A model generated the notes under the pieces. That model was not told where the DNA came from, did not search any database, and saw nothing but the letters and a program-made list of their open reading frames with translations. This document shows, piece after piece, positions 1 to 24,639 of a stretch of DNA of 64,000 nt. The DNA comes from Fomitopsis serialis (Eukaryota; Basidiomycota; Agaricomycetes; Polyporales; Fomitopsidaceae): contig NW_025955128.1 of assembly GCF_022376445.1 (NCBI RefSeq), positions 21,185 through 85,184 of the forward strand. Direction: 5' to 3'. The position numbers and the translations under genes are program-made. Positions within the stretch are counted from its first letter, which is position 1. Each line of letters begins with the position of its first letter.

Positions 1-102
1 AGCTTCTGTTCTGGGGACTATCTACTCTAGGCAACAACCTGGAAACTTCGAATTTCTATGCTTTACATCAAAACCTAGTCGACTTCGCAACCACTCAAGA
101 AG

Positions 103-3100
103 ATGGCTGGATCGACAACCCACTCTCCCAAGCACTCACGTAGTACTCGGGAGGCCCACCGCGCGAAGGTCGATGCGAAGGTCGATGGAATTCTTGACAG
201 TTTTGCGAAGTTCTTGAAGAGTATTCCGGTCGAGACACGAGCTACCCCCGATAGGCGGTTCCGGACACTCGATGACTCGATGAAGCATCTAGATGATGCT
301 ATCACATCGTTCAGACGCTCCGTGGAGCAGGACAACGAGTCCAGACGTCACCGTCGCACGACCTGCCGGACTGAGCTCTCCGACCCCGAGAACTCGTCCG
401 GAGCACTCGCGGAGCAGGCACCGTCCGACCGCGAGGTCGAACGCACAGCACACGCAGAACTGTTCGAGCCCAAGGTCGAGCCCATTCAGAGCTGCCAGGA
501 GAACCCGACTCCGCCTGTTCTAACCGAGCCACAGGAGCTGGAAAGCTCTCCGACGAGTGGTGCGCGCACCGAGATCGACAGCGCTGCCGCTGTTGAGCCC
601 GTGTCTGAGCCCAAGGGGCCGCGTCCTGAGCAGATCGAGCCCGACATCGAGACTGCTCAGAGATGTCCGGAGACTCCGTCTCCGATTGCTCCCAGTGAGC
701 TGACCAAACTCGGTACCACACTCAAGAGTGGTGCACGCGCCCGGTTCGACGACGCCGCCGTCGCCGAGACCGAGCCCAAGCCCCAGTTGTCCGACAAGGC
801 GACTCGGCCCTACGCCCGGGAAGGCATAGGGACGCGACCTTACGTCGCATCCCCGGATGTAGGCGAGCTTTTGCTCGTAGATCCACATGTCGCGTGCTCA
901 GAAATGAGCCGCGACTCAAAATATATGATCGCGCCGGACGACGTGCCCGACGCGGCCAGCATCGAGCTCGACACTCAACGCGTCGAGCGTCACGCGCCCG
1001 CGCCGAGAGCGAGCACTCCCAGAGTTAGCGCTGGAAGTGCTCCTCACAATGCTAACCGCCACTTCGACCTTCACTCTGGCAGCCACCGCCCGCGGGCAAC
1101 CGCATTCCAACCCGGGTTGCACTTCCCAACGGAAGTGCGAGCCGCGGACTGTCCTTGGACAGTTGTACCCTTTGCGGTTCAGCTAAAGGACCGACCGGTC
1201 AGTATCGACTGCCATCTCGCGGTCGACACCCCCTTTGGTGACGACTACTCGCGCGCGGCCGCTACCCAGGAAGACTTGCACTTCCTACCGGAAGTGCAAG
1301 ACTTCGGACTCTCCAAGACGGTTGAACCGCACTCGGTATCGTTGGCACGCCTCGACCGGTCCCCAGAACAGGTCGACTGCGCTCAACCTCAGGATAGGCA
1401 CGAGCGTCCGTCTGGCGGGCCAGACGCACACGCTGTTCCAATGGACGTGCAAACTTGCGTTCGCGGATCCGGATGGCCAGCTGAACTACTGACAGTTCAA
1501 CTGGCGGCGCCCAATGATCTGGCACCTCACGGTGCCAGACCGCGATCTACTTCCTATATGACCACGATCCTCGACTCTCGGAACCTCGCTTCGGACTCGA
1601 GAAGCTCTGTCCTCGACCCCGGCACCATCTGTTCGACCCTCGAAGGTTCTGGCGACACGCAACAGAGCCGCGCGGCCCAGGACTCGTACGACGCGCGTGC
1701 AAGTCCAGCGCCGAGCAACAAGGTCGAGAAGAACGTGCAGAACGGGGAGCGAACAGGAACCAGGGAGATGAGGAAGAGAGAGGAGGGGGAAGGGTGTGGG
1801 GCGAGCAAGAAGAACGAGCACAGAGGCTCAATGGACGCAGGTACGCCCGTGTTGAGCGTATCCCACTCGCCACCGCCTCCTTCTCCAATGCCCACACCGG
1901 CACACGTATCGACGACCACAGAGGTCGTCGTGCGTGTCGCAGGCCATGGAGACGGCATGTACGCGTTGCGGGACGACCTAATGGTCGTGCCCATCGCCCC
2001 GGTTGTGCTACGGGACGACCTTATGGTCGTACCACCACCGTCGCAAAGCGACACAGTGGACGTTCAGTCCCGCATATCGGACACGTCCCGACCTTTGCTG
2101 ACCGACCAGCACACTGTACCGACCAGTGAAGGTACGTCCTCGATGGACGTACCTGTCTCGATACCTCCATCCCCAATGCCCGCGCCAGCAGGCGTATCGA
2201 CGAACGAGAAGTCCGTCGTACGCACTGCTGGCCACGAAGATGGCATGTATGTGTTGCGGGACGACCTAAGGGTCGTACCCCCCGCCCCTCGAGGCGGTAT
2301 GCCTGTAACACGGGACGACCTCGCGGTCGTACCGTCTATTCCGCTAGGCGGCACGGCGGACGCGCAGCATTGCACGTCCGAAGTGCCCCATCGAGCATTC
2401 ACCAGCCGTCGCGTAGCGAACTCGAAGCTCGATGGTATGTCCATACTGGACGTACCCAGTCCTTCCCCGGTTCTCTCGCTAGTACCCGAGCCAGTGTGCA
2501 TGTCGACGAACGAGAAGGCTGTCGTGCGCACTACTGGTCACGGAAACGGCAGGTACACGTTGCGGGACAACCTCGCGGTCGTTCCGTCCACTTCGCAAGA
2601 CGACACGGCGGATGCACGGTGCTGCGTGCCCGCCTTGTCCCGACCTGTCATGACCGACCCACACGAAGGATCGATCAGTGAAGAGGTCGTTGTGCGTGCC
2701 GCAGGCCATGAAGACGGCACTTTCGTGTTGCGGGACGACCTGATGGTCATACCCGCCACTTCTCGAGGCAGTACACTTGCGATACGGGACGACCTCGCGG
2801 TCGTACCATCCAATCTGCAAGGCGACACGGCGGACGCGCAGCGCTGCACGTCCGACGTTTCCCAGACAGCTTTCATTAGCTGTCGAGTAGCGGGTTCGAA
2901 ACTTGAAGCGTGCGTATCGACGAACACGGAGATTGTCGTGCGCACCGCTGGCCACGAACACAATACAATCATGCCCCAGAACGACCTTGAGGTCGTACCC
3001 GAGCGTTCGAGTTCCTCGCTACCGTCTCCACTCCCATTACGGTACGACCTCGCGGTCGTACTCTTCAATTGGCAAAGCGAGACGACGACCGAGCGCCATC

Positions 3101-5310
3101 CCACAATCTACGTACCCTGCTCGGTCACGAACGACAGTCGCGACGTAGAGGGTACGTCGAATTCATGGCTCGATATACACGCTACCGGCAAGCACTGGCA
3201 CAGAGGGTCGAGAAGTACAAGTACGCTCTCGGCGGACGTACTTACCTCGACGCCTGCTGCACCCATGCTCGTGTCCGTGCCCACGCTAGCGAGCGTCACG
3301 GTGAACGAAGAACCTGTCGCGCGCAACACCCACGGCTCGTCGGGCCACCGTCTCTTCATCTCCGCCTTCATGATCACTTGTGATCATGGAGATGACATTA
3401 CGCTCACATCTCGGGACGACCTTCAGGCCGTACCGGGACCCGTCATTCGCCACGGCGAAGTCGGGTACGCACAGTGCTCTCAGCAGCCCGAGATCGCCGT
3501 CGGGTCTGCTCAATGCCACCTGGAGGCACCATCCCAAGGTGCCCCGGCCCAAGCGATGAAGCCAGGCATCACCCCGAAGGATGATGCACGCGCCGAGCTC
3601 GACACGTCCGTCATCGAGCTCGCATCCGAGCTGAACGAGTGGTGCGTTGAGTCGACGCATCTCCGCACTCGGGAGGGCATAGGCACACAGTACCATAATA
3701 GTACTGTGTACAGCGGGGACGAACCCGTACGTGTAGATACACCCGTCGCGCGCTCAGAGATGAGCCGCGACACAAAAAATGTATTATTATTATCGGACGA
3801 CGTGCCTGCCACGACGAGCAGCCTGCTCGACGCGACGCGCGACGCGCTCAACGCTACAGGCGTTGGGTGTCACGAGCCCGTGGCGAGCGACCCGAGCGCT
3901 AGCGCCCACCGCACTACACTCGACCGCCACCACCGAACCCTCGTTCTTGACCTCTTCCACTCTCTGGGCAGCCACCTCGAGCGCCCGTCTGGCGAGCCAG
4001 ACGCGCGCGCCGCCACGCGAGTGCGAACTCGCGTTCGCAACTGGCTGGTTGACTTAATGCCAGCCCAGTCAGTGGCAGCCGACGACCTGGTACCTCGCGG
4101 TACCAAATCGCCACTTCCTCCCTCCCCGGCTCCTCACCTCACCACTTTCGGTTCGCGCATTCACTCTGGCGACCGCTACCGCGGCTTTGGCGACATGCTA
4201 CCCAGCAGCGCGACTCAGGACTTGAACACCGCGCGTTCAAGCCCAGCGCCGAGCTGCAAGGCCGAGCGGACCACGAGGAACGCGGATAGTGGAGGCTGCA
4301 AGGAGATCCCGAAGGAACAAGAAGGGTGCGAGGAACGGACGAAGGGTCAGGGGGAGGAAGGGTGCGGGGCGAGTAGAGAAAGCGAGCAGGAAGGCTCGCA
4401 AAATACAGGTACGCCCTTACTGGACGTACTCAACTCGCCTCCGCCTGTGTCAGTGCCCGCGCCAGCGTGCGTGTCGACGAACATGGAGTTCGTCGTGCGC
4501 ACTACGGACCATGAAGATGGCACCTCCGCCCCCAGGGACGACTGCGAAGTCGTACCCAATGTCCCGCACGGCAGTGCATCCGTGCTGCGGGACGACCTCG
4601 CGGTCGTCCCACTCATCTCGCAATACGACATGGCGGACGTGCAGTACTGCACGTCCGACGTGCCTCACCATCCCACGACCGGATGTCGAGTAGCGGGTAC
4701 GCCCCAGATGGACGTACCCACCTCGACACTTCATCCCTTGCCCGCGCCCATACCAACAAGCGTAGCGACGAACGTGAAGTTCGTCGTACGCATGGCTGGC
4801 CAAGAGGACGGCATGTTCACGCTGCCGGACGACCTATTGGTCGTGCTTTCCGATACGCAAGGCCGCGCGCCAGTATTAGAGGACGACCGCGAGGTCGTAC
4901 ATTTCAATGCGCAAGGCGGCATGATGGATCAGCAGCGATGCAGGTCAGAGATGCCCCATCCAGCGTCGACCGTCCGTTGTGCAGCGCGTACGTCTAGCCT
5001 GCCGCTAGACGTACACGGGGCTTATGACCACCCCTCGTCGATTGCCCCTGACTTCTTGTCTGGCAGCTATATCGCTCGTCCACCCACAACGCAACACGGC
5101 CTGCACGTCCTCACGGAAGTGCAGGCCCTGACTGGCCCAGTGCAGCTGAACCTCCTTTGGTTCAGCTGGCAGAGTCGTGGGTTCACCTCGACGACAGATC
5201 CAGCAGCCCCCAATCGCGCGCGGCCGCATTCCGGGAAGACTTGTACTCCCAACCGGAAGTGCGAGCCCCCGGTAGCGTCAAGACAGCTGAACACCTCGCT
5301 GTTCAACTGA
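103..5310 (+). CDS. Very long repeat-rich reading frame (1,735 codons), function unknown
   Basis: This is an uninterrupted frame from an ATG at 103 with no family I recognise. The N-terminal ~95 residues are charged and possibly helical (rich in Lys, Asp, Arg) and are the only non-repetitive part. The rest is Pro/Ser/Thr/Asp/Arg-rich and low in hydrophobic residues, with no membrane segment. Short peptides recur many times, mainly VVRTAGHEDGM and RDDLxVVP, along with LPEVQ and TPxLDV. Each repeat coincides with a DNA inverted repeat: RDDLxVVP is encoded over the hairpin ACGACC-NNNN-GGTCGT. Two large degenerate copies of the same arrangement follow one another (roughly 780-3,060 and 3,660-4,900). 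A Gag-like role is possible from its place inside an LTR-like element, but no zinc knuckle or capsid motif is visible. Peptide repetition may be a by-product of nucleotide-level structure. Confidence 0.5.
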   Translation: MAGSTTHSPKHSRSTREAHRAKVDAKVDGILDSFAKFLKSIPVETRATPDRRFRTLDDSMKHLDDAITSFRRSVEQDNESRRHRRTTCRTELSDPENSSGALAEQAPSDREVERTAHAELFEPKVEPIQSCQENPTPPVLTEPQELESSPTSGARTEIDSAAAVEPVSEPKGPRPEQIEPDIETAQRCPETPSPIAPSELTKLGTTLKSGARARFDDAAVAETEPKPQLSDKATRPYAREGIGTRPYVASPDVGELLLVDPHVACSEMSRDSKYMIAPDDVPDAASIELDTQRVERHAPAPRASTPRVSAGSAPHNANRHFDLHSGSHRPRATAFQPGLHFPTEVRAADCPWTVVPFAVQLKDRPVSIDCHLAVDTPFGDDYSRAAATQEDLHFLPEVQDFGLSKTVEPHSVSLARLDRSPEQVDCAQPQDRHERPSGGPDAHAVPMDVQTCVRGSGWPAELLTVQLAAPNDLAPHGARPRSTSYMTTILDSRNLASDSRSSVLDPGTICSTLEGSGDTQQSRAAQDSYDARASPAPSNKVEKNVQNGERTGTREMRKREEGEGCGASKKNEHRGSMDAGTPVLSVSHSPPPPSPMPTPAHVSTTTEVVVRVAGHGDGMYALRDDLMVVPIAPVVLRDDLMVVPPPSQSDTVDVQSRISDTSRPLLTDQHTVPTSEGTSSMDVPVSIPPSPMPAPAGVSTNEKSVVRTAGHEDGMYVLRDDLRVVPPAPRGGMPVTRDDLAVVPSIPLGGTADAQHCTSEVPHRAFTSRRVANSKLDGMSILDVPSPSPVLSLVPEPVCMSTNEKAVVRTTGHGNGRYTLRDNLAVVPSTSQDDTADARCCVPALSRPVMTDPHEGSISEEVVVRAAGHEDGTFVLRDDLMVIPATSRGSTLAIRDDLAVVPSNLQGDTADAQRCTSDVSQTAFISCRVAGSKLEACVSTNTEIVVRTAGHEHNTIMPQNDLEVVPERSSSSLPSPLPLRYDLAVVLFNWQSETTTERHPTIYVPCSVTNDSRDVEGTSNSWLDIHATGKHWHRGSRSTSTLSADVLTSTPAAPMLVSVPTLASVTVNEEPVARNTHGSSGHRLFISAFMITCDHGDDITLTSRDDLQAVPGPVIRHGEVGYAQCSQQPEIAVGSAQCHLEAPSQGAPAQAMKPGITPKDDARAELDTSVIELASELNEWCVESTHLRTREGIGTQYHNSTVYSGDEPVRVDTPVARSEMSRDTKNVLLLSDDVPATTSSLLDATRDALNATGVGCHEPVASDPSASAHRTTLDRHHRTLVLDLFHSLGSHLERPSGEPDARAATRVRTRVRNWLVDLMPAQSVAADDLVPRGTKSPLPPSPAPHLTTFGSRIHSGDRYRGFGDMLPSSATQDLNTARSSPAPSCKAERTTRNADSGGCKEIPKEQEGCEERTKGQGEEGCGASRESEQEGSQNTGTPLLDVLNSPPPVSVPAPACVSTNMEFVVRTTDHEDGTSAPRDDCEVVPNVPHGSASVLRDDLAVVPLISQYDMADVQYCTSDVPHHPTTGCRVAGTPQMDVPTSTLHPLPAPIPTSVATNVKFVVRMAGQEDGMFTLPDDLLVVLSDTQGRAPVLEDDREVVHFNAQGGMMDQQRCRSEMPHPASTVRCAARTSSLPLDVHGAYDHPSSIAPDFLSGSYIARPPTTQHGLHVLTEVQALTGPVQLNLLWFSWQSRGFTSTTDPAAPNRARPHSGKTCTPNRKCEPPVASRQLNTSLFN

Positions 5311-6290
5311 CAGGCCCGCAATACGACCTTGACCTGCTCGACGAAGTGTTGGACCTCAATCCCGACTTGTTGAGCAGTCACCACCGTCTTCGCGACCCCG
5401 GCGCCTCTGCGAGTGCGCAGCCCGACGCTTGCGTAGCCCCAACGAACACGCGAGTTCGGGATTGCGAGGCGACTACTGCACTACCGACAGTGCAGCAGCC
5501 GGCGCTTACGGACTCCGACCGACCAGAACGGCTGTCCGACCGTCAACCCGACGAGAACTTCACAGTTCTCATCGAGGGTTCGATCCTAGGGACCCCTACC
5601 AAACTCCCCATCACCTCCTTCGCGGCCCCCGACATCGGTGGCGACTACGAGAGGCGTCACGAGTCGGAGCTCGTGCACGCACCCCGAAGATCGAGTGCAG
5701 GACGGACGGAGGATCAGGGCGGGGTCGAGGTGGAGGTGGAGGAGATTGCAGAGGCAGGAGAGGCAGAGGAGGAAGGTCAGACAGAAGGAAGAGAGGGGGA
5801 AGGGCACGGCGTAGGCAAGGAAGACAAGCTTCCGTGCTCGGAAGACAAAAGTACGCCCGTACTGGACGTACCTCCCCCGCTTATATCGCCACCCCTTACA
5901 CCGTCATCACCACTATCGACGGCCACGACAACCACACTGGTTGTCGTGGCAATCACCGTGCACAATGGTGGTACGGGCAGACCACGGGGCGACCTACAGG
6001 TTGCTCCCGGCACGGCTAGGCATTGCGGTACGATCGGCGAGCGAGTCTGCTCGTCCGATGTATCCGACATCTTCACAGCTCACGCGCAGACGACGAGTTC
6101 CTCGCTCGACATCTACGCTGAGGTGCTTAGCAGTGGATCAAACAACGAGTACCTCAAGGTACTCGCTGCGCATTCACCACCTCCTATCCCACTACCACCA
6201 CCTGTGACGATCACGACAATCAACGTGGTTGTCGTGGCAGTCACCACGTATGACGGTGGTACCAATGGCCTATGGATGTATTACGAGCTG
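780..6290 (+). repeat. Three diverged tandem copies of a multi-kilobase module
   Basis: Matching landmarks recur in order. The GCTCA-loop-TGAGC hairpin followed by GCCGCGAC occurs at ~896 and ~3752. The GCGCGCGGCCGC block ahead of a GGAAGTGC hairpin arm occurs at ~1250 and ~5215. A GAGGAAGGGTG-type purine-rich stretch followed by a GTACGCCC...GGACGTAC-like pair occurs at ~1,780-1,860, ~4,330-4,430 and ~5,780-5,870. The copies are too diverged for simple tandem repeat arrays. Some sites keep a hairpin but with an unrelated stem sequence: 834-848 versus 3685-3709. Confidence 0.6.
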
Positions 6291-6686
6291 CACCCGGCAT
6301 GACGATGCATCGCGGTACAATCGGTGAGCTTATTGCTCGACCGATGTATCTGATCGTTCTGCAGCCCACGCGCAGACGTTGGGCTTCCCCGTCGACGTCC
6401 ACGATGAGGAAGTTGACGGTGATTCGAGAAGCGAGTACCTCGTGGTACTCGTGCCAGTATCATTACCCTGCATTCCGATACCACCACCGATTGGTCACAT
6501 CCAGTATGGTCGCGCATCGACTCAGGGAGTGCTGAGCTCGCTGGCGAATGCGAGTACATTACAGCTCGGGTTGCGACCACCCTCACTGGTCCCATCACCA
6601 TCATCCATGATGTATCTGGAGAATTCACAGTTCTCCGACCTGGGTTGCTATCATCATTCCGGGCTGCATAACTCCATTGAGTTATG
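834..6686. repeat. Dense array of short perfect or near-perfect hairpins
   Basis: Inverted repeats with 5-12 bp arms and mostly 4-5 nt loops occur throughout. Examples checked by eye: 834-848, 864-877, 896-909, 1275-1300 (11-bp arms), 1910-1930, 1973-1988, 2015-2030, 2130-2154 (10-bp arms), 2261-2276, 2315-2330, 2831-2854, 3043-3060, 3369-3388, 3685-3709, 3752-3765, 4538-4553, 4592-4607, 4634-4657 (24-bp palindrome), 4829-4844, 4883-4898, 5553-5570, 5923-5949 (11-bp arms), 6146-6165, 6432-6451 and 6667-6686. The commonest stem is ACGACC/GGTCGT. At 4538-4553 both arms change together (ACGACT/AGTCGT), keeping the pairing. Confidence 0.85.
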
Positions 6687-6720
6687 TATGACGAGAGTGG
6701 ACGGCCATGCTGCTCACTGA
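5157..6720 (+). pseudogene. Frame-broken third copy of the repeat-rich reading frame
   Basis: Peptides homologous to the upstream frame continue here in other frames. Residues resembling the LPEVQ and VQL blocks are read in a second frame from 5157 to 6302. A third frame is needed around 6272-6380, and a fourth stretch runs from 6379 to 6720. The first frame change lies at ~5,140-5,160, beside an inverted repeat whose arms read CAGCTGAACC and GGTTCAGCTG. The protein frame is therefore not maintained, yet perfect hairpins persist (5553-5570, 5923-5949, 6146-6165, 6432-6451, 6667-6686). Either the 3' portion is decayed coding sequence, or the coding appearance of the whole region is secondary to DNA/RNA structure. 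Unrecognised introns are an alternative but no convincing splice sites were found at the frame changes. Confidence 0.5.
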
Positions 6721-6870
6721 CACGAAGTAGCTTGTCGTTGTCTACAGTATGGCACCACCTCGGTCTGGCCTATTGCTACCACCGTTGTGTGGTAGCATGT
6801 ACTTTCCTTTTCATTTCATTTCCTCTTTCTTTGTTTCTCTGGTTATCTCTGGGACCCGTGGTCGTGTCCA

Positions 6871-6881
6871 GTGGGGGAGGG
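6871..6881 (+). other. Polypurine tract before the 3' LTR
   Basis: An almost pure purine run (GTGGGGGAGGG) lies immediately 5' of TGTAAC. In LTR retroelements such a tract primes plus-strand synthesis. A pyrimidine-rich stretch precedes it (6805-6850). Position next to the LTR-like end is the main evidence. Confidence 0.55.
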
Positions 6882-7084
6882 TGTAACGGATATTCCCGTT
6901 ACGGTATATCTTATCTCGTATGATTGTTCTTGTTTGTTCGAGGGCTCGTATGGCACGCCAGCGCACCTATGAGACCTCAGTCCTTTACCATCCTCATCGC
7001 CCCATGTATGCTACGTGTAGACAGTCCCTCTGAATAGAGACTGGGTACAGCGCATACCGGGCCCGAGGATTAAGGGACGCTACA
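6882..7084 (+). mobile_element. Putative 3' long terminal repeat (203 bp)
   Basis: Begins TGTAAC and ends GCTACA, short imperfect inverted ends with the usual TG...CA. A TATA-like TATATCTTAT lies near the start. The right border is supported independently: the paralogous sequence at 18085 is continuous with flanking DNA, and similarity between the two copies starts at 7085. The partner LTR is not in the window, so identity between LTRs cannot be tested here. The expected target duplication would be about 5 bp beginning at 7085 (GGGGA). Confidence 0.6.
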
Positions 7085-8034
7085 GGGGAACTCCTGCTCT
7101 TGTATGAGCAGTTGAGTGAACCTCACCGTTTTCACGAGATGCCGACCCTCCGGGCTCCAACATTCTACCCCACGAAGGCTTGAAGATGCTTAGCACCATT
7201 AAGTATCAGCGATGTGTGCCGCCTAGAGCCCGATGAACGCTGTACGCGCGATGGTCCCTTCGATGTTGTACCGAAGACATCAAAGGGCTGACAACCGATT
7301 CTCGATAATAGGCCCTGCTGTCCCCGTTTTGCAAAAACATGGTCGACGAATCACTCGCGTGTGACCTACCCCGCCGTAGCCGTGCGTGCAGGAACTGCAC
7401 AGGTGGGTCTGATGCGACCAGAGCAGTTCACATCTCCTGACGCCTCAGATCCATGCCCGCGACCAACGTACGCACCGCGTCTGACCTCGCATGCTCAATT
7501 TGCCTCGAGCGGACGGACGAACCGGCGGGCGGGCGAATGAACAGACGGATGAGTGAGCGGATGTACGGACGGACGAGTTTGCGGGCGAGTTGGTTCTTTG
7601 CGAACGCACGACCTCTACGGGACGAATTGGCGTCGCGAGTTGTGCGCCCTTGACTGTCTTCTCGCCGACCACACCAAGGATATCTCCGTCAAAAGTGGGA
7701 GCCCGAGCAACTAATCGTCACGATCTGGCACGGCTCGGCGCTCGAATCCGCCTTCTCTGCCGTCGTCGTCGAAGACTCCTCGCTTTGCTGGACCGTTGCC
7801 GGAGACCCCCAGTGGTGACATCGGCGAGCGAACATCTGCGCCTTCTTGGTCGCAATGAACGCCTGGCCGGACTCCACCCCCCTCCCCCGCTGCGAATGCA
7901 GATAAAGGGCGTTGATACGTGCGAGGACGTCGACGCTTTCCAATGAAACGGAGGCTGTCGCCATCCACTTCTACGTCAAGATATTCGATCGCGAGCCGCC
8001 GCTCAGCAGACAATGCAAGCCTGTGCCACATGAG

Positions 8035-8043
8035 TATATAAAG
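8035..8043 (+). promoter_or_regulatory. TATA box of tail-anchored gene copy 1
   Basis: TATATAAAG lies 40 bp upstream of the ATG at 8083. The same box sits at the same distance in copy 2. Confidence 0.7.
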
Positions 8044-8082
8044 CGAAGGCGAAGTCGACCAACGTGCAGTCAAGCAAGCCCC

Positions 8083-8782
8083 ATGTCCTCCCCTTCTCCC
8101 TCGTTCAGCACCCTCTCCGATAATGTCGTCGTCGTCCGCTCTGGGAGGCGCCCCGACAAGTAAGTTGGTTGCCCTTCCCTCATAAATTATAGCGCTGAGC
8201 ATCAGTTGACAGAGGGATATTCGTCTTCTATGTGGCGGATTACCGAATAGGAGGGGTCGTAACTATAGACGGCGCTCGCATCATGAGGCCTGGACGCCTC
8301 GTCTTCATCCCTCTCCCTGGCGGTCGTTGTGAGCCTGCCCTTCCGATTCTTTGCTGTCGATCCGCCACTGACGGCTACCTCCCGCAGATGCCTTCTTCTG
8401 CTGCGGGCCTCGCGAGGTGCGAGGAAGGCCGATCGGCTCATGGAACGTTCAAATCGTTGTCCAAGAGGTGAGCGCGCAGCCGGTTCAATGGCTCAGTCAC
8501 TAAGTTGTTGTGTTATAGCCCACATTGACCGTTTATTGGTACGATGAAGTGGCGGACAGGGTCTACTCGGTGACCATGTACGACGACGAGAGTTTCCGTA
8601 CGCTTATGTACCACTGCTTCGGAGGGAGTGGCGACGGCGCTATCTCGCAGGGCGTTGTTAGCTCGCAGAGCACCAGGCCGTCCTGGCGCCACGCCTGTGG
8701 CGTCATCGTTGCATACCTCGTCGCTCTTTATCTCTCCTACAAGGCTACTGCTGCTTATGTCTCGTTCACGAAGTACATGTAG
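8083..8782 (+). CDS. Small tail-anchored membrane protein, copy 1 (four exons, 178 aa)
   Basis: Exons 8083-8159, 8213-8328, 8388-8467 and 8519-8782 join in frame with GT-AG introns of 51-59 bp. I do not recognise the family. The N-terminus is Ser/Pro-rich, then a beta-rich stretch (IFVFYVADYR, RLVFIPLPGG) is followed by a Cys-Cys pair in exon 3 and a Trp/Tyr-rich segment at the start of exon 4. Near the C-terminus, about residues 149-172, is one hydrophobic helix (GVIVAYLVALYLSYKATAAYV) with a short tail ending KYM, so the protein is probably tail-anchored with its bulk in the cytosol. No signal peptide is visible. The second copy at 19024-19717 preserves frame, splice phases and stop, which argues that both are functional. 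A clear TATA box supports the start. Confidence 0.75.
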
Positions 8783-8825
8783 ATGATCACCGTTTCCTGG
8801 ATCTTCGAGGTCTTAGTTCAATTGT

Positions 8826-8942
8826 TTTCATTTTCCCTCCCCTCCTTTCCTTTCCGTTCCCTTCTCTTCCGTTCCTCCCCTTCCTTTCCGTTCCCTCCGT
8901 TCCCTTCCTTCCCCTCCTCCTCCCCTCCTCTCTTTCCTCTAG
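8826..8942 (+). repeat. Pyrimidine-only tract
   Basis: About 110 bp of almost pure C/T (CCTTTCCGTTCCC-like units) lie shortly after the stop codon of the gene. The copy-2 equivalent (19751-19810) is shorter. Could lie in the 3' UTR; no further function inferred. Confidence 0.6.
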
Positions 8943-9231
8943 CACAATCACCGCATTGCCCATCGAATCACGCCGTAGTAATTTAGAATACAACCCGAGG
9001 ACCTTCGCTCCTACACCTCAGCCATGCCCCTTGTGCCACTGACGCTGCGCTTGCGCGGCCGTGCGCGAGCGACGAACGTGTGCGAGTGCCAGTGGGACGA
9101 CGGCATGCATATTTCGAGCATGTTGTCCTCATTGTCGTCGCTGTGACCCAGACAAGCTCGGCCTCCGCTCGCGCGCGTCCTCCGCTCCCATCGCGCGTGC
9201 GCGCGTTGATCGGCGAAGCTCGAAGGCGTGC

Positions 9232-15668: not shown

Positions 15669-16615
15669 AGCTCCTCCGCGCGCGACTCGGGGCGTCGATG
15701 CTCTATGTTTTCGAATTCGCGATCGACATACTAGTAAGGATGTCGCGGCGCTAATGCCGACTTACGTCATCCTCTCACGCCTCGCAACCTCCGACGACTT
15801 GCAGCCCGTCGTGCTACATGCGGCGGCGCTCAACGCTCACGGCGTCCACCATCCCGCAGCTGCAGCCCCGTCGCACCCCCGCCGTCGCCGTCACTGTCCG
15901 TCCGAGGCCTACCTGGAACGAAGGGACCCGCCAGCTGGCGGGTTGAAGCGCGGCGGCTTAGCCCGCGAGGCCGTCCGCCAGGTCGACATGGGAGCCGACA
16001 TAGGGTGTCGGCGCGACGAATCCTTGCGGAACGTCGGCGGGACGGGTCGCTTCTATGCGGGGAATTGTAAGTGCGTTCTCTGCGTGTCCTCACGCAACGC
16101 AAAGCTGACCTATACGCAGGAGACTGTCGCCGATATCGATGGCGGATTCACCGCCACCCGAAATCGACCCACAGGTCCAAGGCGACGACCACCCTCGTTT
16201 CACGCCCTCGATCGTGGACGGGATAGTGTCAGCTGCGCGGGTCATTCTCAGCGATCGCAGCGTAGGGCGCGTCGTTGTCGCAGCAAAGCGACAGAAGACA
16301 AGGGCGGCGAGCTTCAAGTCACGCAGTCGGTGGAGCGGTACCGTAGGAGGGCCATGCCAGGGCGCGAAGAAGAGGTGCGTGGTGTGAGATGTCTCCTCCA
16401 TTCGATGCTCACCTGTCGTCCTCGATGGATAGCAAACACCTTACCACGTACTTGCCGCGCCGAATGCGCGGGTGATAGCGACGCTTCGTGCGAAGGTATC
16501 CGAACTGCAGCCCGTCCGTCGCCTCCGTCTCGCCCCGGTCGTCCGTTTTGGTTTCGACCATGCGTTGATGACCGGGCGGTGAGCTCCTGCTCTTGATGAG
16601 CGGTAGAGCGAACCT
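15669..16615 (+). repeat. Segmental duplication D2, copy 1
   Basis: Closely similar to 20193-21256. Both contain the same possible intron (GTAAGTGCG...ACGCAG, near 16,066-16,120 and 20,559-20,611) and the same open frame after it (MADSPPPE...). A short protein cannot be ruled out. Both end in a block with GGTTTCGACCATGCGTTGATGACC and an inverted GCTC/GAGC pair, which also occurs at ~18,045-18,111. Copy 1 lacks a ~130-bp segment present in copy 2 at ~21,010-21,140. Confidence 0.85.
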
Positions 16616-16642
16616 GCTCCTGGTCGTTGTTCATGCCCTCCC

Positions 16643-17875
16643 TCAAGTCGCGCTCTCAGTCTTTATTGCCCATCCTGCCGTCCCTCTGTCCTCCACACTG
16701 AGCCCGAGTCGATAAGACACTCGTGTTATCCCCGCCCTCTCGTGTCGTTTCTTACGTCGGATCATCCGTTACGCCCGGCTGCCACCGCCTCCGCGAGCTC
16801 CCATACAGGCTCAGAGAATTCCTCACCTAGCCGCGGACGTGCCCGCACCCGTTGTTCAGGTCGGCTCGGAACTGCGGTCTGTCAAGGATGGGCCGGTGAA
16901 GCGAGTAGGTCGTTCTGTGTCGACGCCCCATGATGGACATGGCGGCACAGTTCCAAGTTCCAAAGGTCACAAGTGAAGGCCACGTTGTTCGACACGGGCA
17001 CTGACTTCTCCTGATCCCTCTCTGACTCCCGCTGCCGCTTGGGTTCCCCCTCCTTCCCCATCACCCTGGCGGACGCGCCGTGCCTCTGCACCCTCGCCCT
17101 CCGCGCGCTCGCCTTCGACGACGAGCTGTTTGACACGTACTGCACCGAGCTGCCGTCTGACGGATACCACACGAAGCCGATGACACGCCCGACTCATCGC
17201 CAGAGAAGGGGATATTGATTTTAAAGATGTCGACCCCAGAGATCTTCCGCTCGTCCTGAAGCAAGTGAGCTTCGCTGTGCGCCCGGGGGGGAGGTACGTG
17301 CATCTCCGATGATCCCTTCATTCGCGCTCATCCAGTCGGCTAGATCGGCATCGTAGGTCGCACAGGCGCAGGAAAGCGCTTGCTCATGCACGCGCTGTTT
17401 AGGTACGCTGCTCTTCGTGCGGCGCGCATCCTCAGATTGATGTTTTCTCTAATGCAGCACGGTGAACATCGCCTGGAGATCGACGGCGTGGACGCGCGCT
17501 ATATCGGGCTGAAGACACTGCGTGCGCAGCCGCCTTGCTCTCGTCCCGCAAGACAACGTGCTCTTCAAGGGAACACTCCGTCAGAACCTGTACGTCCACT
17601 GTCATGCACACCACGTTGACGATGCCTGATCAATATTCCCGTAGAGACTCAGAGGGCACCCGCACGGATGCGCAATTGATCTCTGCCATCCAGCCGACGT
17701 GGCTACTGCCGCAGAACGGGGCGCATGACGCCGTGGCGGAGGCGAAGTTCAGTCTGGACTCTCTCGTCGGCGACGAGGAGAGCAACTACTCCGCTGGCGA
17801 GAAGCGGATGTTGGTGCTCTATCGGGCGTTGGCGAAGAACAGCCGCATCATCGTCCTCGTCTGGGATGTGTAAGC
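16643..17875 (+). pseudogene. Decayed ABCC-type transporter fragment (second nucleotide-binding domain), copy 1
   Basis: Read in several frames, this contains recognisable parts of the C-terminal ABC domain of a fungal ABCC (MRP-type) transporter. There is a strand leading into LPLVLKQVSFAVRPG (~17,225-17,290), a P-loop GRTGAGKR at ~17,355-17,380 with Arg in place of the usual Ser/Thr, LEIDGVDARYIGLKTLR (~17,470-17,520) and PQDNVLFKGTLRQNL after a frame change. The signature region NYSAGEK (~17,785-17,810) is followed by a Walker B strand that reads IIVLV without the DE pair. Frame changes, stop codons and lost catalytic residues make this a pseudogene. The transmembrane part is missing. Duplicated at 22321-23560. 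Confidence 0.7.
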
Positions 17876-18975
17876 GCTTGTTGGCGTCTAGTACGGCACC
17901 GGAGGTCCGGCCAGAGTCGCCTTGAGCGCTTGTGCGCCCGCCCCGTCCTCCCGTCCTACGCCGACCTCTGGTCTCTTTCAACAGCATTCGTGCTCTGCTA
18001 TGTCCACCTCAGCCCCTCTCTATGCCTCAATTCTGGTACAACAGACGTCCGCTTTGGTTTCGACCATGCGTTGTTATTTGAGCCGGGGAGCTCCTGCTCA
18101 TTTATGAGCAGTTGAGTCAACCTCACCGTTTCCACGAGATGCCGACCCTCCGGGCTCCAACATTCTACCCCACGAAGGCTTGAAGATGCTTAGCACCATT
18201 AAGTATCAGCGATGTGTGCCGTCTAGAGCCCAATGAACGCTGTACGCGCGATGGTCCCTTCGATATTGCAACGAAGATATCTCAAGAGGCCGACAACCGA
18301 TTCTCGACATTAGGCCCTGCTGTCCCCGTTTTGCAAGAACATGGTCGATGAATCAACCGAGTGTGACCCACCCCGCAGAAGCCGTGCGTGCAGGTGCCCG
18401 TGACCAACGTCCGCATCGCGTCTGACCTCGCATGCTCGATTCGCCTCGAGCAGCCAGATGAACCGGCGGGCGGGCGAATGAACAGACGGATGAGTGAGCG
18501 GATGTACGGACGGACGAGTTTGCGGGCGAGTTGGTTCTTTGCGAACGCACGACCTCTACGGGACGAATTGGCGTCGCGAGTTGTGCGCCCTTGACTGTCT
18601 TCTCGCCGACCACACCAAGGATATCTCCGTCAAAAGTGGGAGCCCGAGCAACTAATCGTCACGATCTGGCACGGCTCGGCGCTCGAATCCGCCTTCTCTG
18701 CCGTCGTCGTCGAAGACTCCTCGCTTTGCTGGACCGTTGCCGGAGACCCCCAGTGGTGACATCGGCGAGCGAACATCTGCGCCTTCTTGGTCGCAATGAA
18801 CGCCTGGCCGGACTCCACCCCCCTCCCCCGCTGCGAATGCAGATAAAGGGCGTTGATACGTGCGAGGACGTCGACGCTTTCCAATGAAACGGAGGCTGTC
18901 GCCATCCACTTCTACGTCAAGATATTCGATCGCGAGCCGCCGCTCAGCAGACAATGCAAGCCTGCGCCACATGAG

Positions 18976-18984
18976 TATATAAAG
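18976..18984 (+). promoter_or_regulatory. TATA box of tail-anchored gene copy 2
   Basis: TATATAAAG, 40 bp upstream of the ATG at 19024, matching copy 1. Confidence 0.7.
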
Positions 18985-19023
18985 CGAAGGCGAAGTCGAC
19001 CAACGTGTAGGAAAGCAAGCCCC

Positions 19024-19717
19024 ATGTCCTCCCCTTCTCCCTCGGTCAGCGCCCTCTCCGATAACGTCGTCGTCGTCCGCTCTGGGAGGCTCCCCGACAA
19101 GTGAGTTGGTCGCCCTTCCTTCATGAGTTGTACCGCTGAGCATCAGTTGACAGAAGAATTCTTGTCTTCTATGTGGCGGAATATCGACTGGTCGCAACTG
19201 TTGGCGGCGGGAGCATCATGAGGCCTGGACACCTGGTCTTCATACCTCTCCCTGGCGGTCGTTGTGAGTCTGCCCTTCCAACTCGTTGCTCTCGGCCCGC
19301 CACTGACGGCTGCCTCCCGCAGATGCCTTCTTCTGCTGCGGGCCTCGCGAGGTGCGAGGAAGGCCGATCGGCTCATGGAACGTTCAAATCGTTGTCCAAG
19401 AGGTGAGCGCGCAGCCGGTTCAATGGCTCAGTCACTGAGTTGTTGTGCTATAGTCTACATTGACCGTTTATTGGTCCGATGAAGTGGCGGACAGGGTGCA
19501 CTCGGTGACCATGTACGATGACGAGAGTTTCCGTACGCTTGTGTGCCATTGCTTCGGAGGGAGTGGCGACGGCGCTATCTCGCAGGGCGTTGTTAGCTCG
19601 CAGAGCACCATGCCGTCCTGGCGCCACGCCTGTGGCGTCATCGTTTTGTACCTCGTCGCTCTTTATCTCTCCTACAAGGCTACGGCTGCTTTTGTCTCAG
19701 TCACGAAGTACATGTAG
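19024..19717 (+). CDS. Small tail-anchored membrane protein, copy 2 (four exons, 176 aa)
   Basis: Exons 19024-19100, 19154-19263, 19323-19402 and 19454-19717 join in frame with the same phases as copy 1. Two codons are missing from exon 2 relative to copy 1, a change of six bases that keeps the frame. Most other differences are substitutions. The exon-2 strand reads ILVFYVAEYR, the exon-3 Cys-Cys pair is kept, and the C-terminal helix (GVIVLYLVALYLSYKATAAFV) and short KYM tail are conserved. In-frame indel and preserved splice sites point to purifying selection on both copies. Family and function not recognised; a tail-anchored cytosolic-facing protein is inferred. Confidence 0.75.
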
Positions 19718-20192
19718 AGGATCACTGTTTCCTGGATTTCGAGAGGCCTTGATCTTTTTCCCTTCCCTCCCTTTCTTCCCTTGCTCCTCTCACCCTCTTC
19801 TCTTTCCACAAGCGCAATCGCTACGTCGCGCATCGAATCTCGCCGTAATACTGTAATTATGATTTAATGTGTTTCAATACAACCCGAGGACCTCTGCTCC
19901 TACACCTCAGCCATGCCCCTTGTGTCACTGACGTCGCATTTGCGCGGCTGCGCGCGAGCGACGAACGTGTACGAATGCCAGTGGGACGACATCATGCACA
20001 TCTCGGGCATCTTGTCTTCACTGTCGTCGCTATGATGCAGAAGAAGCTCGCGCACGTCCTCCGCTCGCTCCAGCTGGCATCGGGCGTGCGCGCGTTGATC
20101 GGCGAAGCTCGAAGGCGTGCGTTGACATCAAGACATCCTTTCTGTGCTGCGACGACCTGAGGTGACGAGTCCGATCCACCATCTGGCTGTCC

Positions 20193-21256
20193 AAGCTCCT
20201 CCGCGCGCGACTCGAGGTGCCGATGTTTTCGAATTCGACATGAGGATCTCGCGGCGCTAATGACGAATTACGTCATGCTCTCACGCCCCGCAACCTCAGC
20301 GCTTCAGTCCGACGACGCGCAACGCTCACGGCGTCCACCATCCCGCAGCTGCAGCAGCCCCATCGCACCCCCGCCGTCGCCGTCACTGTCCGTCCGAGGC
20401 CTACCTGGAACGAAGGGACCCGCCAGCTGGCGGGTTGGAGCACGGCGGCTTAGCCCGCGAGGCCGTCCGCCAGGTCGACATGGGAGCCGACATAGGGTGT
20501 CGGCGCGACGAATCCTTGCGGAACGTCGGCGGGACGGGTCGCTTCTATGCGGGGAATTGTAAGTGCGTTCTCTGCGTGTCCTCACGCAACGCAAAGCTGA
20601 CCTATACGCAGGAGACTGTCGCCGATATCGATGGCGGATTCACCGCCACCCGAAACCGACCCACAGATCCAAGGCGACGACCACCTCCGTTTCACGCCCT
20701 CGGTCGTGGACAGGATAGTGTCAGTAGCGCGAGTCAGTCTCAGCGATCGCAGCGTAGCGGGCGCGTCTGTGTCGCAGCAAAGCAACAGAGACAAAGGGCG
20801 GCGAGCTCCAAGTCGCGCAGCCAGTGGAGCGGTACCGTAGGAGGGCTACGCCCGGGCGCGAAGAAGAGGTGCGCAGTGTGAAATGCAATCTCTCGTTCGA
20901 TACTAACTCGTTTTCCTCGACGGACAGCAAGCCCCTTACCATGTACTTGCCGCCCCGGATGCGCTGGCGAAGACATCGCTTGCTGCGAAGATACCCGAAC
21001 TGCAGCCCCCGTATACGGGAGGCATTGCTATCCTTGAACCATATCGTTTCGTCTTGCGTTGGCAACGCAAGACGAAACGATCTGGTGCTTCCTTCGCATC
21101 GAGGTCTACACGGGGTTGTTTCCTTGGACTGGCTCCACGCCTCGCCCGCCCGTCCGTCGCCTCCGTCTCGCTCCGGTCGTCCGTTTTGGTTTCGACCATG
21201 CGTTGATGACCGGATGGTGAGCTCCCGCTCTTGGTGAGCGGTAGAGCGAACCTACT
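20193..21256 (+). repeat. Segmental duplication D2, copy 2
   Basis: Partner of 15669-16615; contains an extra ~130 bp at ~21,010-21,140 that includes a long perfect hairpin. Confidence 0.85.
21043..21081. repeat. Perfect 18-bp inverted repeat with 3-nt loop
   Basis: Arms 21043-21060 and 21064-21081 are exactly complementary around GGC. The sequence lies in the segment that is present only in this copy of duplication D2. Confidence 0.95.
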
Positions 21257-21289
21257 CGCTGTGGCGTAGTTTCTCAGTGTGTTTGTCTG

Positions 21290-23580
21290 TGCGCTTCTCA
21301 CTGCTGCAATTCGTCGCCTGCGCGCGCTGGATGCAGTGAGCCGTAGGGTCGAGCGCGGGACGACCCGGTTCGCGTATGAGGTGCAGAGCGTGCTCAAGGC
21401 GGAGATGGCAGACAGGTGACCGCTCGGCCACGCAGGATATCACACTCTACGGTCTGGGGCGATTGGCCGTGAGTAATTGTCGACGAGTCCACTGCACTCG
21501 GTGCAAGCAAGGAGCCCGAGGAAGCGCAGCCTGAGCTGATGCAGGTACGCTGCTCCAGTATTTCCACTCTTCCCTCGCTCACAATGATACGCGCAGAATC
21601 GTTGACTGGCATTAGCGCCGTCCGTGCATACGGAGAAGAGGTGAGTATCGCACCGGAATGACACAGTCGTACCCGGGAACGTATGCCCGTGCAGGGCAGA
21701 TTCGTTCGGAAGACGGAGCACGGCCTTGACGTAGAGAACAGGGCCCACTACATGGTCATCGCGACCCAGCAGTGGCTGAGCGCTCTGCTCGACCTACTCA
21801 GCGACATCCTCGTCCTCGACGTCGCGCGATTCACGGCCAGGTTCAGCCAGACGATCAGCCCGAGCAAGGTCGACATCGTCCTGTCGTACAGATTGAGCAA
21901 TGCGTGCCTCTCTGCCCTCCAGCACGAGTTCGCGCAGAGTCTCAGCCGCACGGTGCGGTTCTCCGAAGTGGTAACAAGCATGCACGGTCCGCTCTTCCCG
22001 ATGGACGAGGCACCCACCCTTCAATCGCAGGCTCGTAGGAGCCGATCACAGCGAGAGCTCTTCGCCAGCTTGTTTGATTCGAAAGACTGCGAGGATGAGC
22101 GTGCGCTTGCTAAGGGAAGGCACGAGGTCGAAGCGGGCAAGCATGCAGGCGGAAGCCACAGGACGTGGATGTGTTGCAAGCGATCCTCATCGTCCGTGCC
22201 TAGCAGCGGGTCGGCCATCTCCTCATCGGCATTGACCATCACCCAATTCTTGGTTCTCCTTCGGCAGCTGCAGCTCGGCGTCGACCGCTCTGACGACGCC
22301 TTCCTTCTCCCTGCATTCTTCAAGTCGCCCTTTCAGTCTTTATCACCCATCCTGCTGTCCTCTGTCCTCTACACTGAGCCCGAGTCGATAACCTCGTGTT
22401 ATTCCTGCCCTCTTGTATCAATTCTTACGTCGGATGACCCGTCACGCCCGGCTGCCACCACCTCCGCGAGCTCATACAGGCACAGAGAATTCCTTACCTA
22501 GCTGCGGGCGTGCCCGCACCCGTGGTTCAGGTCGGTGTGCTTCCATTCCGGAGCTGCAGTCTGTCGAGGATGGGCTGGTGAAGTGAGTAAGTCGTTCCGG
22601 GTCGACGCTCATGGACACGGTGGCACGGTTACAAAGAGCGTGTGTGAAGGCCACGTTGTTCAGCATCGGCACTGACTTCTCTTGATCCCGCGGCCGTTCG
22701 GGCTCCCGCTCACCTTCCCCATCACCCTGGCGGTCGTGCCGTGCCTCTGCGCCCTTGCTCTCCGCGCGCTCGCCCTCGACGTCAGTGTCTTGCTCTCCGC
22801 GACAGTGGTCGACGACGAGCTGTTTGACACGTACTACACCGATCTGCCGTCTGACGGAGACTACACGAAGCCGAACGACACGCCCGTCTCATCGCCAGAG
22901 AAGGGGGCATCGATTTCAAGGATGTCGACCACGGAGGTCTTCCGCTCGTCCTGAAGCAAGTGAGCTTCGCCGTGCGCCCAGGGGAGAAGGTGCGTGCATC
23001 TCCAATGGTCCATTCCTTCGTGCTCATCCTGTCGGCTGGATCGGCATTGTGGGTCGCCCAGGCGCAGGAAAGTGCTCGCTCATGTAGGCGCTGTTCCGGT
23101 ACGTTGCTCTTCGTGCGGGGGGCCTCCTCAGATTGACGTTTTTCATGCAGCACGGTCAACATCGCCTGGAGATCGACAGCGTGGACACGCAAAATATCGG
23201 GCTGAAGACAGCCTTGCTTTCATCCCGCAAGACAACGTGCTCCTCAATTCCCGTAGAGACCCAGAGGGCACCCGCACGGATGCGGAATTGATCTCTGCCC
23301 TCCAGCGGACGTGGCTGCTGCCGAAGGACGAGGCGCATAACGCCGCAGCGGAAGCTCTCGTCGGCGACGAGGGGAGCAACTACCCCGTTGGCGAGAACGT
23401 GATGTTGGCGCTGTCGGGCGTTGGCGAAGAACAGCCGCATCATCATCCTCGTCAGTCTCGGTTCCGCCGTGCTCGTACAGGGGTTTGGGCGCTGATGTCG
23501 ATCGTTATAGGACGAGGCGACGAGCAACTTTGGCATGGAGATGGACGCGAAGCTGTTCTCGGTGAATTGGTCATCGCGCT
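21290..23580 (+). pseudogene. Decayed ABCC-type transporter fragment (membrane domain plus nucleotide-binding domain), copy 2
   Basis: Recognisable parts, in several frames: ESLTGISAVRAYGEE (~21,598-21,640) and RFVRKTEHGLDVENRA with hydrophobic helices (~21,695-21,960), both typical of the second membrane domain of fungal ABCC transporters. The nucleotide-binding domain follows: LPLVLKQVSFAVRPGEK (~22,940-22,990), P-loop GRPGAGKCSL (~23,050-23,080; Pro and Cys at unusual positions), PQDNV, a short LISALQRTWLLPK stretch, NYPVGEN in place of the usual NYSAGEK signature, and a DEATSN-like stretch at ~23,512-23,530. Stops and frame changes between parts, and an inserted non-coding segment (~22,040-22,680), indicate a pseudogene. 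The ABC half from ~22,321 duplicates 16643-17875. Confidence 0.7.
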
Positions 23581-23714
23581 GAATGCGGTAGGTTTTACAT
23601 ATAATAGTCGGTAGTGTATAGTCGTTCTCAAACCGCTGTGTCGGTGGTCATGTTGCCGAAATTAGATCTAAATTGCTTTTACCATTAGTGGCCGCTAGTC
23701 GGTATCGAGCTGAC

Positions 23715-24005
23715 TGTCAAGATCGCTGTGGATGTCAATACATGTCGTAGTTGGTATCGTGTCCACTGTCGACGTCGCTGTTGAGATCGTTGTCGGGATC
23801 GTTGTCGACGTCCGGTCGCTGTCGACGTCGCGGTCGAGATCGCTGTCGACGTCGCGGTCGAATCGCTGTCGCGTGGTCGGTCGGTCGCGGTCGACATCGC
23901 TGTCGACGTCGCGGTCGAGATCGCGGTCGGTGTCGCGGTCGGTGTCGCGGTCGGATCGCGGTCGAGATCGCGGTCGATGTCGCGGTCGAGATCGCGGTCG
24001 AATTT
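23715..24005. repeat. TCG-rich minisatellite
   Basis: Degenerate tandem units built from GTCGACGTCGCGGTCGAGATCG fragments, with many TCGA and GTCGAC steps. Open frames reading SRSLSTSRS are a consequence of the repeat. Confidence 0.8.
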
Positions 24006-24639
24006 GCTATCGTGTTGTCATGTACCAGGTCTGGAAAGTTCGTATATTATCTGAGTATTCTGAACGAGTACATATAGGATAGCCCTTCCCTGATTCATGC
24101 ATGTCCTGGGTCAGGAAAGCTATCATTGTCTTACAATCTGTTCGAGAAAAGTGTGCGAGGAATATTTAGCGTGCTCTCGACGTATTTGAGCGGAACTTAT
24201 TACGTGACCCATATTTGGGCAACAAACATTTGTATTGTATTGTACAATGTCCGACATCCGTGTATCTTTAGAATACTTAAGTAGTACCCACAATATTCTT
24301 GTGCAAAGTATTGTCAGGATTCTTTAGCTAATCATCACATGCCCTCAGCATATTCCTGCCCAGAACATCGCATTTTGCCCCCAGTGTCAGGCACTCTGGC
24401 GTTAGATCACGGGCGGTACTTATCCTGACATCCAGCGCCCCGCAATCGCAACAGCAGTCACAAAAGCTGTTCTAATCGCAATCAGTTGCCATCAAAGGTT
24501 CTGCAACCCTCTTCGCGCGATGACAAGTGATGTTGTGCTCGAGGGCCGACTCGGAGGCCTGTTAGTAAAGTCCAGGGCATACAGCTCCTGTCCAAATATG
24601 GTAATCACCCTCTGAGTCCGCACTTGGCTAGGCTCGTTC
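24006..24639. other. No gene seen
   Basis: AT-richer than its surroundings, with no supported coding sequence. It separates the minisatellite from the left end of the two-gene element. Confidence 0.5.

Follow-up and report, generated by a model that had tools for sequence, protein, structure and literature searches.

Plants harbour non-autonomous long terminal repeat (LTR) retroelements, the LARDs and TRIMs, whose RNA secondary structure is described as well conserved (PMC7215508). Here we describe a family of non-autonomous LTR retroelements in the nuclear genome of the basidiomycete Fomitopsis serialis. One copy lies in a 64,000-nucleotide window (the whole stretch of DNA analysed, positions 21,185 to 85,184 of contig NW_025955128.1, called C77 below), and relatives were searched for in the 66.2-Mb assembly of the species. 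A stretch of this window saturated with short hairpins is the internal region of an LTR retroelement and not a host gene. As in LARDs and TRIMs, LTRs bound the element, gag, pol and env are lacking, mobilisation presumably occurs in trans and RNA structure is, putatively, conserved (PMC7215508). It also has the size and gene content of a LARD, being several kilobases long with no Pfam domain, and so no gag, pol or env, in the long open reading frames (ORFs) of six complete copies. However, descriptions of LARDs credit them with no encoded protein, whereas frames of up to 2202 aa are open in some copies here, and the structure of this element consists of dozens of short stem-loops across its coding region, unlike that described for LARDs and TRIMs (PMC7215508). 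Because frames of 1735-2202 aa are present and stop codons are depleted 6.7-fold, we did not file the element as a LARD.

Hairpins within coding sequence have been described in other settings. In mitochondrial genes of Nematomorpha, inverted repeats also lie in coding sequence, both arms are translated and template switching has been discussed, but those repeats are perfect, reach 284 bp and sit in conserved respiratory genes (PMC6649704), whereas the arms found here measure 6-13 bp, occur many times per kilobase and belong to a nuclear mobile element with a barely conserved protein. PARCEL sequences, compared with ours by their description, are palindromic DNA in repeat-coding ORFs, linked in certain taxa to mobile elements; they form amphipathic 25-residue tandem repeats with imperfect dyads, in contrast to the many different short hairpins of an LTR element. 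Rickettsia palindromic elements are also said to place palindromic sequence within reading frames. These are described as inserted and as losing arm identity over time (PMC6649704), whereas we found many distinct hairpins with conserved arms and, instead of one related palindrome in many frames, 21 arm families within one element. Ordered structure with stem-loops all along the coding sequence is known from positive-strand RNA viruses, and the minimum folding energy difference (MFED) of 14.4% measured here, well above 1% along the coding sequence as in genome-scale ordered RNA structure, is close to the ~15% of SARS-CoV-2 and above the 7.5-10.7% of hepatitis C virus (PMC7642675). This is a resemblance only, as the element is not an RNA virus, and viral stem positions are described as poorly conserved (PMC7642675), whereas both position and arm sequence are kept between our copies. 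The genomic RNA of Ty3 has local structured regions and uses palindromes in dimerization; its structure is a mosaic, and a hairpin-saturated coding region is not described in the available part of that source (PMC11381356). Among the open-licence, top-ranked matches of our literature searches, we found no description of hairpin-saturated fungal LTR elements. Fungal mitochondrial double-hairpin elements, which are mitochondrial and non-coding, were also considered; they are ruled out by the spread of the copies over many contigs, some longer than 1 Mb, and by the nuclear-type genes beside the window copy.

The architecture of the window copy (Table 1) is Ty3/copia-like, with direct repeats of the TG...CA type, a target site duplication within the 4-6 bp range and a polypurine tract. 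It is on the LTRs, duplications and polypurine tract that the identity of the element rests; a preliminary description of this DNA, made by eye from its letters, had offered no such reading. An element-free version of the insertion site is present elsewhere in the window, as both flanks of the element match one other stretch, and directly from the end of the 3' LTR the DNA matches the second copy of a host repeat, at 18085. This repeat belongs to a first set of direct host repeats (7085-9231 and 18085-20120), at the edge of which the retroelement lies; a second set occupies 15669-17861 and 20194-23453, and the pieces of both sets are 79-95% identical. After the 5' LTR, each complete copy carries a conserved T-run followed by GCGCTCC, with five T instead of six in L025. 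A leader hairpin, CCAGAACAG-CTT-CTGTTCTGG, stands beside this T-run right after the 5' LTR in 9/12 copies and differs in L031, L039 and L040.

Table 1 Features of the element and its hairpins (window positions unless a contig is named)
Feature	Position	Strand	Basis or remark
LTR retroelement, 7306 bp	-221 to 7084 = C77:20963-28268	+	identical LTRs, GGGGA on both sides
5' LTR	C77:20963-21165	+	ends 19 bases before window start
3' LTR, 203 bp, TGTAACGG...CGCTACA	6882..7084 = C77:28066-28268	+	100% identical to 5' LTR
Polypurine tract CAGTGGGGGAGGG	6869..6881	+	directly before 3' LTR
3' copy of 5-bp target site duplication GGGGA	7085..7089		
Paralogue of insertion site without element	17943..18694	+	left flank matches 17943-18089 (82%), right flank from 18085 (92%)
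ORF, 1735 aa, no Pfam match	103..5310	+	nearly stop-free across copies
Coding homology continued in other frames	5142..6453	+	tblastn of P0003; copy frameshifted
Densest hairpin array	834..6686		hairpin counts, MFED
ACGACC-NNNN-GGTCGT hairpin (RDDLxVVP), type case	1973..1988		hairpin scan
Further ACGACC-NNNN-GGTCGT hairpins	2015, 2261, 2315, 2789, 2981, 3044, 4592, 4829, 4883		
Compensated ACGACT/AGTCGT form of RDDLxVVP hairpin	4538		
CGACGACC/GGTCGTCG hairpin	1910..1930		hairpin scan
Compensated forms of 1910-1930 hairpin, CGACGAAC/GTTCGTCG	4475-4495 and 4766-4786		
Further compensated form of 1910-1930 hairpin, 13-bp arms	5922-5950		
TCTGGCACC/GGTGCCAGA hairpin	1518..1539		hairpin scan
CATGATCA-CTTG-TGATCATG hairpin	3369..3388		loop inverted (CAAG) in L023 and L024

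The search of the assembly led to 20 fetched loci, of which L021 is part of the window copy and eight have one LTR in the fetched stretch, while complete copies are present at the other 11. The 11 and the window copy form the set of 12 complete copies used below, while the one-LTR loci were excluded from hairpin counts. Complete copies are 6.1-7.8 kb long, and all 12 have LTRs of 201-203 bp that start with TGTAACGG (TG) and end in CA, as well as 5-bp target duplications; the 13-base polypurine tract is identical in 11/12, with a one-base variant in L031. Within a copy, the two LTRs are identical in 11/12 cases and match at 202/203 positions in L023. Between copies, LTRs are on average 91% identical (mean of the 65/66 pairs with enough aligned) and internal regions 86%, and internal divergence among the 12 ranges from 1.4 to 22%. 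Each insertion thus looks young, its LTR pair being identical or nearly so, and many divergent lineages coexist. These lineages appear to have moved recently, or else their LTR pairs were homogenised. The genome contains roughly 40 relatives of the element, as judged by the LTR matches, which number at least 40, by 38 occurrences of the post-LTR motif TTTTTTGCGCTCC, which the control lacks (0), and by many protein matches. In one further copy, at C257:285604-299522, 13.9 kb separate the LTRs, which probably enclose a nested insertion of ~6 kb.

No reverse transcriptase was found inside the 19 LTR-bounded elements, be it among 147 RVT_1 or 104 RVT_2 matches (the best-scoring candidates in both cases, those of RVT_2 being read off as a list), and no autonomous partner with the same LTR was found among these 19. 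The locus on C457 (L041) was taken up as an autonomous candidate and proved to be another hairpin element.

The hairpin content of the window copy is far above what its composition can produce. Counting perfect arms with loops of 3-10 nt, we found 51 hairpins with arms of at least 6 bp in 834-6686, against a mean of 12.4 and a maximum of 22 in 200 dinucleotide shuffles; there are 20 with arms of at least 8 bp (mean 0.86, maximum 4) and 6 with arms of at least 10 bp (mean 0.04, maximum 1). Permuting the codons of the ORF among synonyms only brought the 44 hairpins observed there at the lowest threshold down to 13.4 (maximum 24), and the 15 with arms of at least 8 bp down to 1.4 (maximum 4). Chance and composition as the source of the hairpins are ruled out by the dinucleotide, codon-order and synonymous shuffles. 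Relatives are equally rich: the internal regions of all 12 complete copies hold 45-61 hairpins with arms of at least 6 bp, where 20 shuffles per copy average 9.5-12.8, and 17-26 with arms of at least 8 bp, where the shuffles average 0.5-1.1. A thirteenth copy, L041, holds 56 and 26, counted without a shuffle control.

The preliminary description had called this density beyond chance and had named two findings that would speak against it, similar counts in shuffled sequence of the same composition and relatives devoid of hairpins; the shuffles fall far short, and every complete copy is saturated. Its further claims, that the hairpins are nuclear and coding and that the peptide repeat RDDLxVVP is laid over ACGACC-NNNN-GGTCGT, agree with copies on many contigs, with hairpins inside the ORF and with the repeat itself. 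It had also treated 834-6686 as the unit and as one reading frame. The densest array does lie there and a long ORF exists, but the unit rich in hairpins extends over the element's entire internal region (window -18 to 6881), and the ORF occupies other limits (Table 1), beyond which coding homology runs in other frames.

In the window copy, arms measure 6-13 bp and loops 3-10 nt, and 21 arm families remain after collapsing arms with five bases in common. Loops of 4 nt are in excess (27 in window 1-6720 versus 1.9 per shuffle of 834-6686). Each 2 kb contains 9-20 hairpins in window 1-8000 and 1-8, the background, from 8001 on, and density in 103-834 is below that of 834-6686. Folding energies point the same way on both strands. 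From codon 245 on, the ORF has a z of about -10 on each strand relative to 40 synonymous shuffles; averaged over 120-nt windows, z reaches -2.1 (+) and -2.3 (-) in 830-6600 and is ~0 in 24-31 kb; and the MFED of 834-6686 is 14.4% (+) and 14.1% (-), with -0.2% and -2.0% in a control stretch. In the local ensemble, arms pair with a mean probability above 0.5 in 42/49 hairpins on the + strand and 43/49 on the - strand. No excess of hairpin axes aligned to codons was seen over synonymous shuffles (20/42 versus 571/1166). As a separate observation, 5' arms are A- and C-rich, with 104 C-G or A-T pairs versus 64 G-C or T-A pairs (21 collapsed families, window 1-6720). This bias is absent from hairpins of shuffled sequence and is the opposite of the bias described for RNA stems elsewhere (PMC8794818).

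Individual hairpins show pairing kept through change. The hairpin at 1910-1930 and its compensated forms display GC, GU and AU states at one pair, and that at 1518-1539 has a second-half counterpart over homologous peptides (TGGTACC/GGTACCA, 4088-4105), in which a double change kept the pairing. In the commonest palindrome, ACGACC-NNNN-GGTCGT, spacing is fixed at 4. Among RDDLxVVP-type motifs of the window ORF, the first V codon, which lies in the arm, is GTC in 11/11, whereas the next V is GTC in 1/10. Small alignments of repeat units within the window gave covariation scores reached by 15/500 and 23/500 shuffles, a direction that agrees with the comparison of copies.

Because defining hairpins in one of the copies compared risks ascertainment bias, we relied on a third-copy test, in which hairpins were defined in one copy and divergence was taken between two others. 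With each of the 12 copies as reference, arms diverged at 0.40-0.54 and loops at 1.10-1.54 of the rate outside, that is, in the rest of the internal region; pooled divergence was 7.2% in arms, 14.7% outside and 19.1% in loops. In 2570 pair comparisons both sides of a pair had changed; both states were Watson-Crick in 1332, one was Watson-Crick and the other not in 661 (30 of them G-U), and neither was in 577. When the window copy served as reference, double changes numbered 47 where 12.8 would be expected if the sides changed independently, and 28 of the 47 were Watson-Crick. Mismatches in the window copy (9 A-C versus 1 G-T) did not settle the strand. Amino-acid covariation in homologues is weak, as variants changed in both arms are fully pairable in 27% of cases versus 21% of mixed arms, a comparison blurred by secondary alignments.

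Frames of 1735-2202 aa are found in 6/12 complete copies; the longest frames of the other six measure 632-1564 aa, and these copies were broken at least partly by frame changes. In the window copy, homology to P0003 runs in frame +3 at 5142-6167 with a piece at 6195-6299, then in frame +1 at 6337-6453 (tblastn). Changes that create stops in the true frame number 42 against 282 expected, a 6.7-fold depletion (from 66 ordered comparisons; 23 sites in the sum over six references), whereas the five other frames show 0.92-1.0 of the expected number. Among the six long-frame copies, divergence at codon positions 1/2/3 was 15.0/15.6/15.4% outside arms and 6.4/8.8/7.9% inside them, and the missense/silent ratio (omega-like) outside arms was 0.85-1.02 of the neutral expectation. 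Since arms diverge less, stops are depleted and codon positions are alike outside arms, pairing and an open frame look selected, and the amino-acid sequence hardly so.

Protein searches gave eight relatives, of which seven are F. serialis proteins and one, P0008, belongs to Rhodofomes roseus. For P0010 of F. serialis, 439/439 residues are encoded on contig C257 and again on C223; its distant relatives on C41 (with an open frame of 2524 aa), C279, C334 and C179:431096, at 41-44% identity, suggest further subfamilies. At their C-termini, P0003 and P0008 have acidic tails that can be aligned with 44% identity over 77 positions, and the end of L039 looks alike by eye. Pfam gave no match in the ORF or in the long ORFs of L024, L025, L031, L032 and L039, and weak matches below cut-off only for the continuation of the ORF and for P0001-P0004. 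No PDB relative of P0003 was found, the window was empty of tRNAs and of Rfam families at gathering scores, and pattern-limited scans and tblastn gave no prokaryotic, viral or plasmid relatives. At least seven annotated F. serialis 'uncharacterized proteins' therefore belong, or are related, to retroelement reading frames.

Conservation of the arms at every codon position, loops that vary and more paired double changes than expected argue for selection on a folded strand. We favour, with a probability of roughly 55%, the reading that the hairpins are selected as stem-loop-rich RNA or complementary DNA (cDNA) in the cycle of the element, with template switching as their supply. The element would be moved by enzymes of another retroelement, and its RNA, or single-stranded cDNA made from it, would have to fold into a local string of stem-loops during the cycle. 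Such a string would help in packaging, in protection or in keeping reverse transcription orderly. The RNA would also have to be translated along its length, which would keep the frame open while the sequence of the product mattered little, and template switching at the stem-loops would now and then help to make and repair arms. RNA packaging or protection, which the preliminary description had listed among possible roles, may be what the hairpins serve, in view of the conserved arms and of pair changes that are partly compensated. More tentatively, and on balance doubtfully, the stem-loop string could be the whole selected content of the retroelement, the frame being open for translation only, for the sake of stability or entry into the cycle, with amino acids drifting and template switching renewing the hairpins.

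Several results weigh against this reading. No helper element was identified, and a tRNA-type primer site (TGG...) was not seen after the 5' LTR of the complete copies, a comparison made without a search of the genome's tRNAs. Half of the complete copies (6/12) have no frame of at least 1700 aa, and the window copy is frameshifted near its end. Copy-to-copy indels divisible by three (592/1595) barely exceed one third, a sign that the frame is not kept very strictly, unless alignment gaps account for it. Arm codons are somewhat more constrained at the amino-acid level (omega-like 0.60-1.04), and single 120-codon bins of the window ORF span 0.49-1.91, with 0.59 in the first 120 codons; arm values and the lowest bins thus speak for some protein constraint, which is slight, yet not nil. 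Single arm changes number 15788 versus 2570 doubles, and counts over copy pairs are not independent, as the copies share ancestry. Finally, the wobble test contradicts itself. Over all positions, and relative to the rate outside, changes that would create a G-U wobble in the sense strand occur at 0.42, those that would do so in the antisense strand at 0.50 and transversions at 0.35, whereas third codon positions reverse the wobble order (sense 0.52-0.53, antisense 0.45-0.46). The test therefore favours neither strand and does not single out RNA over DNA.

It is possible, although we consider it rather unlikely, that the hairpins have no function and that snap-back template switching during reverse transcription or replication makes and perfects inverted repeats, which a lax product tolerates. 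Missense change is indeed near neutral, and copies differ by exact in-place loop inversions, a footprint discussed for template switching, with complete loop inversions said to suggest its interstrand mechanism (PMC8794818). Among loops with at least two differences between copies, 66/818 are exact reverse complements, while 0/818 are plain reverses and 0/818 plain complements; counted as distinct pairs, 4/78 loops of 3-4 nt are inverted (controls 0). These inversions, hinting at template switching, lend some support to the role in recombination proposed in the preliminary description, but the distinct events are only four, and two of these differ at just two bases. Moreover, no inversions were found among distinct pairs of loops of 5-8 nt (0/77) or 9-40 nt (0/318). 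Copying of one arm from the other should not itself, by our reasoning, slow divergence, yet arms are slowed in all 12 reference copies and at all codon positions, and unrepaired single arm changes far outnumber doubles.

A different source of constraint would be the protein, if RDDLxVVP, TS..LDV and similar motifs made up a repeat protein that happened to have palindromic codons. Stop depletion in the true frame, the weak constraint outside arms, in arms and in the first 120 codons, and the aligned acidic tails of P0003 and P0008 fit this proposal, as does the better conservation of arm-encoded residues in 8/8 homologues (pooled 57% versus 41% outside and 31% in loops). We nevertheless regard it as improbable, as conservation within arms is no weaker at third codon positions than at the other two, ~70% of hairpins are lost on synonymous shuffling, the in-arm V codon of the motif is fixed while its neighbour is not, and codon positions outside arms show no bias. 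Slightly less probable still is that a dimeric protein recognises the palindromes as double-stranded DNA, or that they act as cruciforms in chromatin or recombination. Pairing tolerance without a clear strand bias and the fixed spacing of the commonest palindrome would suit such sites, but 21 arm families with such varied arms and loops would not, nor would the strong preference for 4-nt loops, which folded strands would show. Least probable of all, in our judgement, is that the array acts in host silencing, as a small-RNA source or decoy: stable stems are predicted on both strands, but Dicer substrates have longer stems than those of this element.

If selection on a folded strand is confirmed, the family would represent a mobile element with a coding region shaped by folding and not by its protein. 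Its related, recently inserted copies form a natural series for separating structure from protein constraint base by base, and make it a good system in which to ask how hairpins arise and persist, by selection or by template switching.

Elsewhere in the window, the adjoining repeat contains one perfect hairpin with arms of 18 bp and a loop of 3 nt (21043-21081), longer than any of the window's element, and a degenerate 12-bp tandem repeat of the GTCGCGGTCGA type occupies 23699-24024. A DUF6589 protein of 646 aa is encoded at 25748-27688 on the - strand (E 5e-96), and pieces of a polyketide synthase gene, with ketosynthase, acyltransferase and weak dehydratase matches, lie at ~56366-59408.

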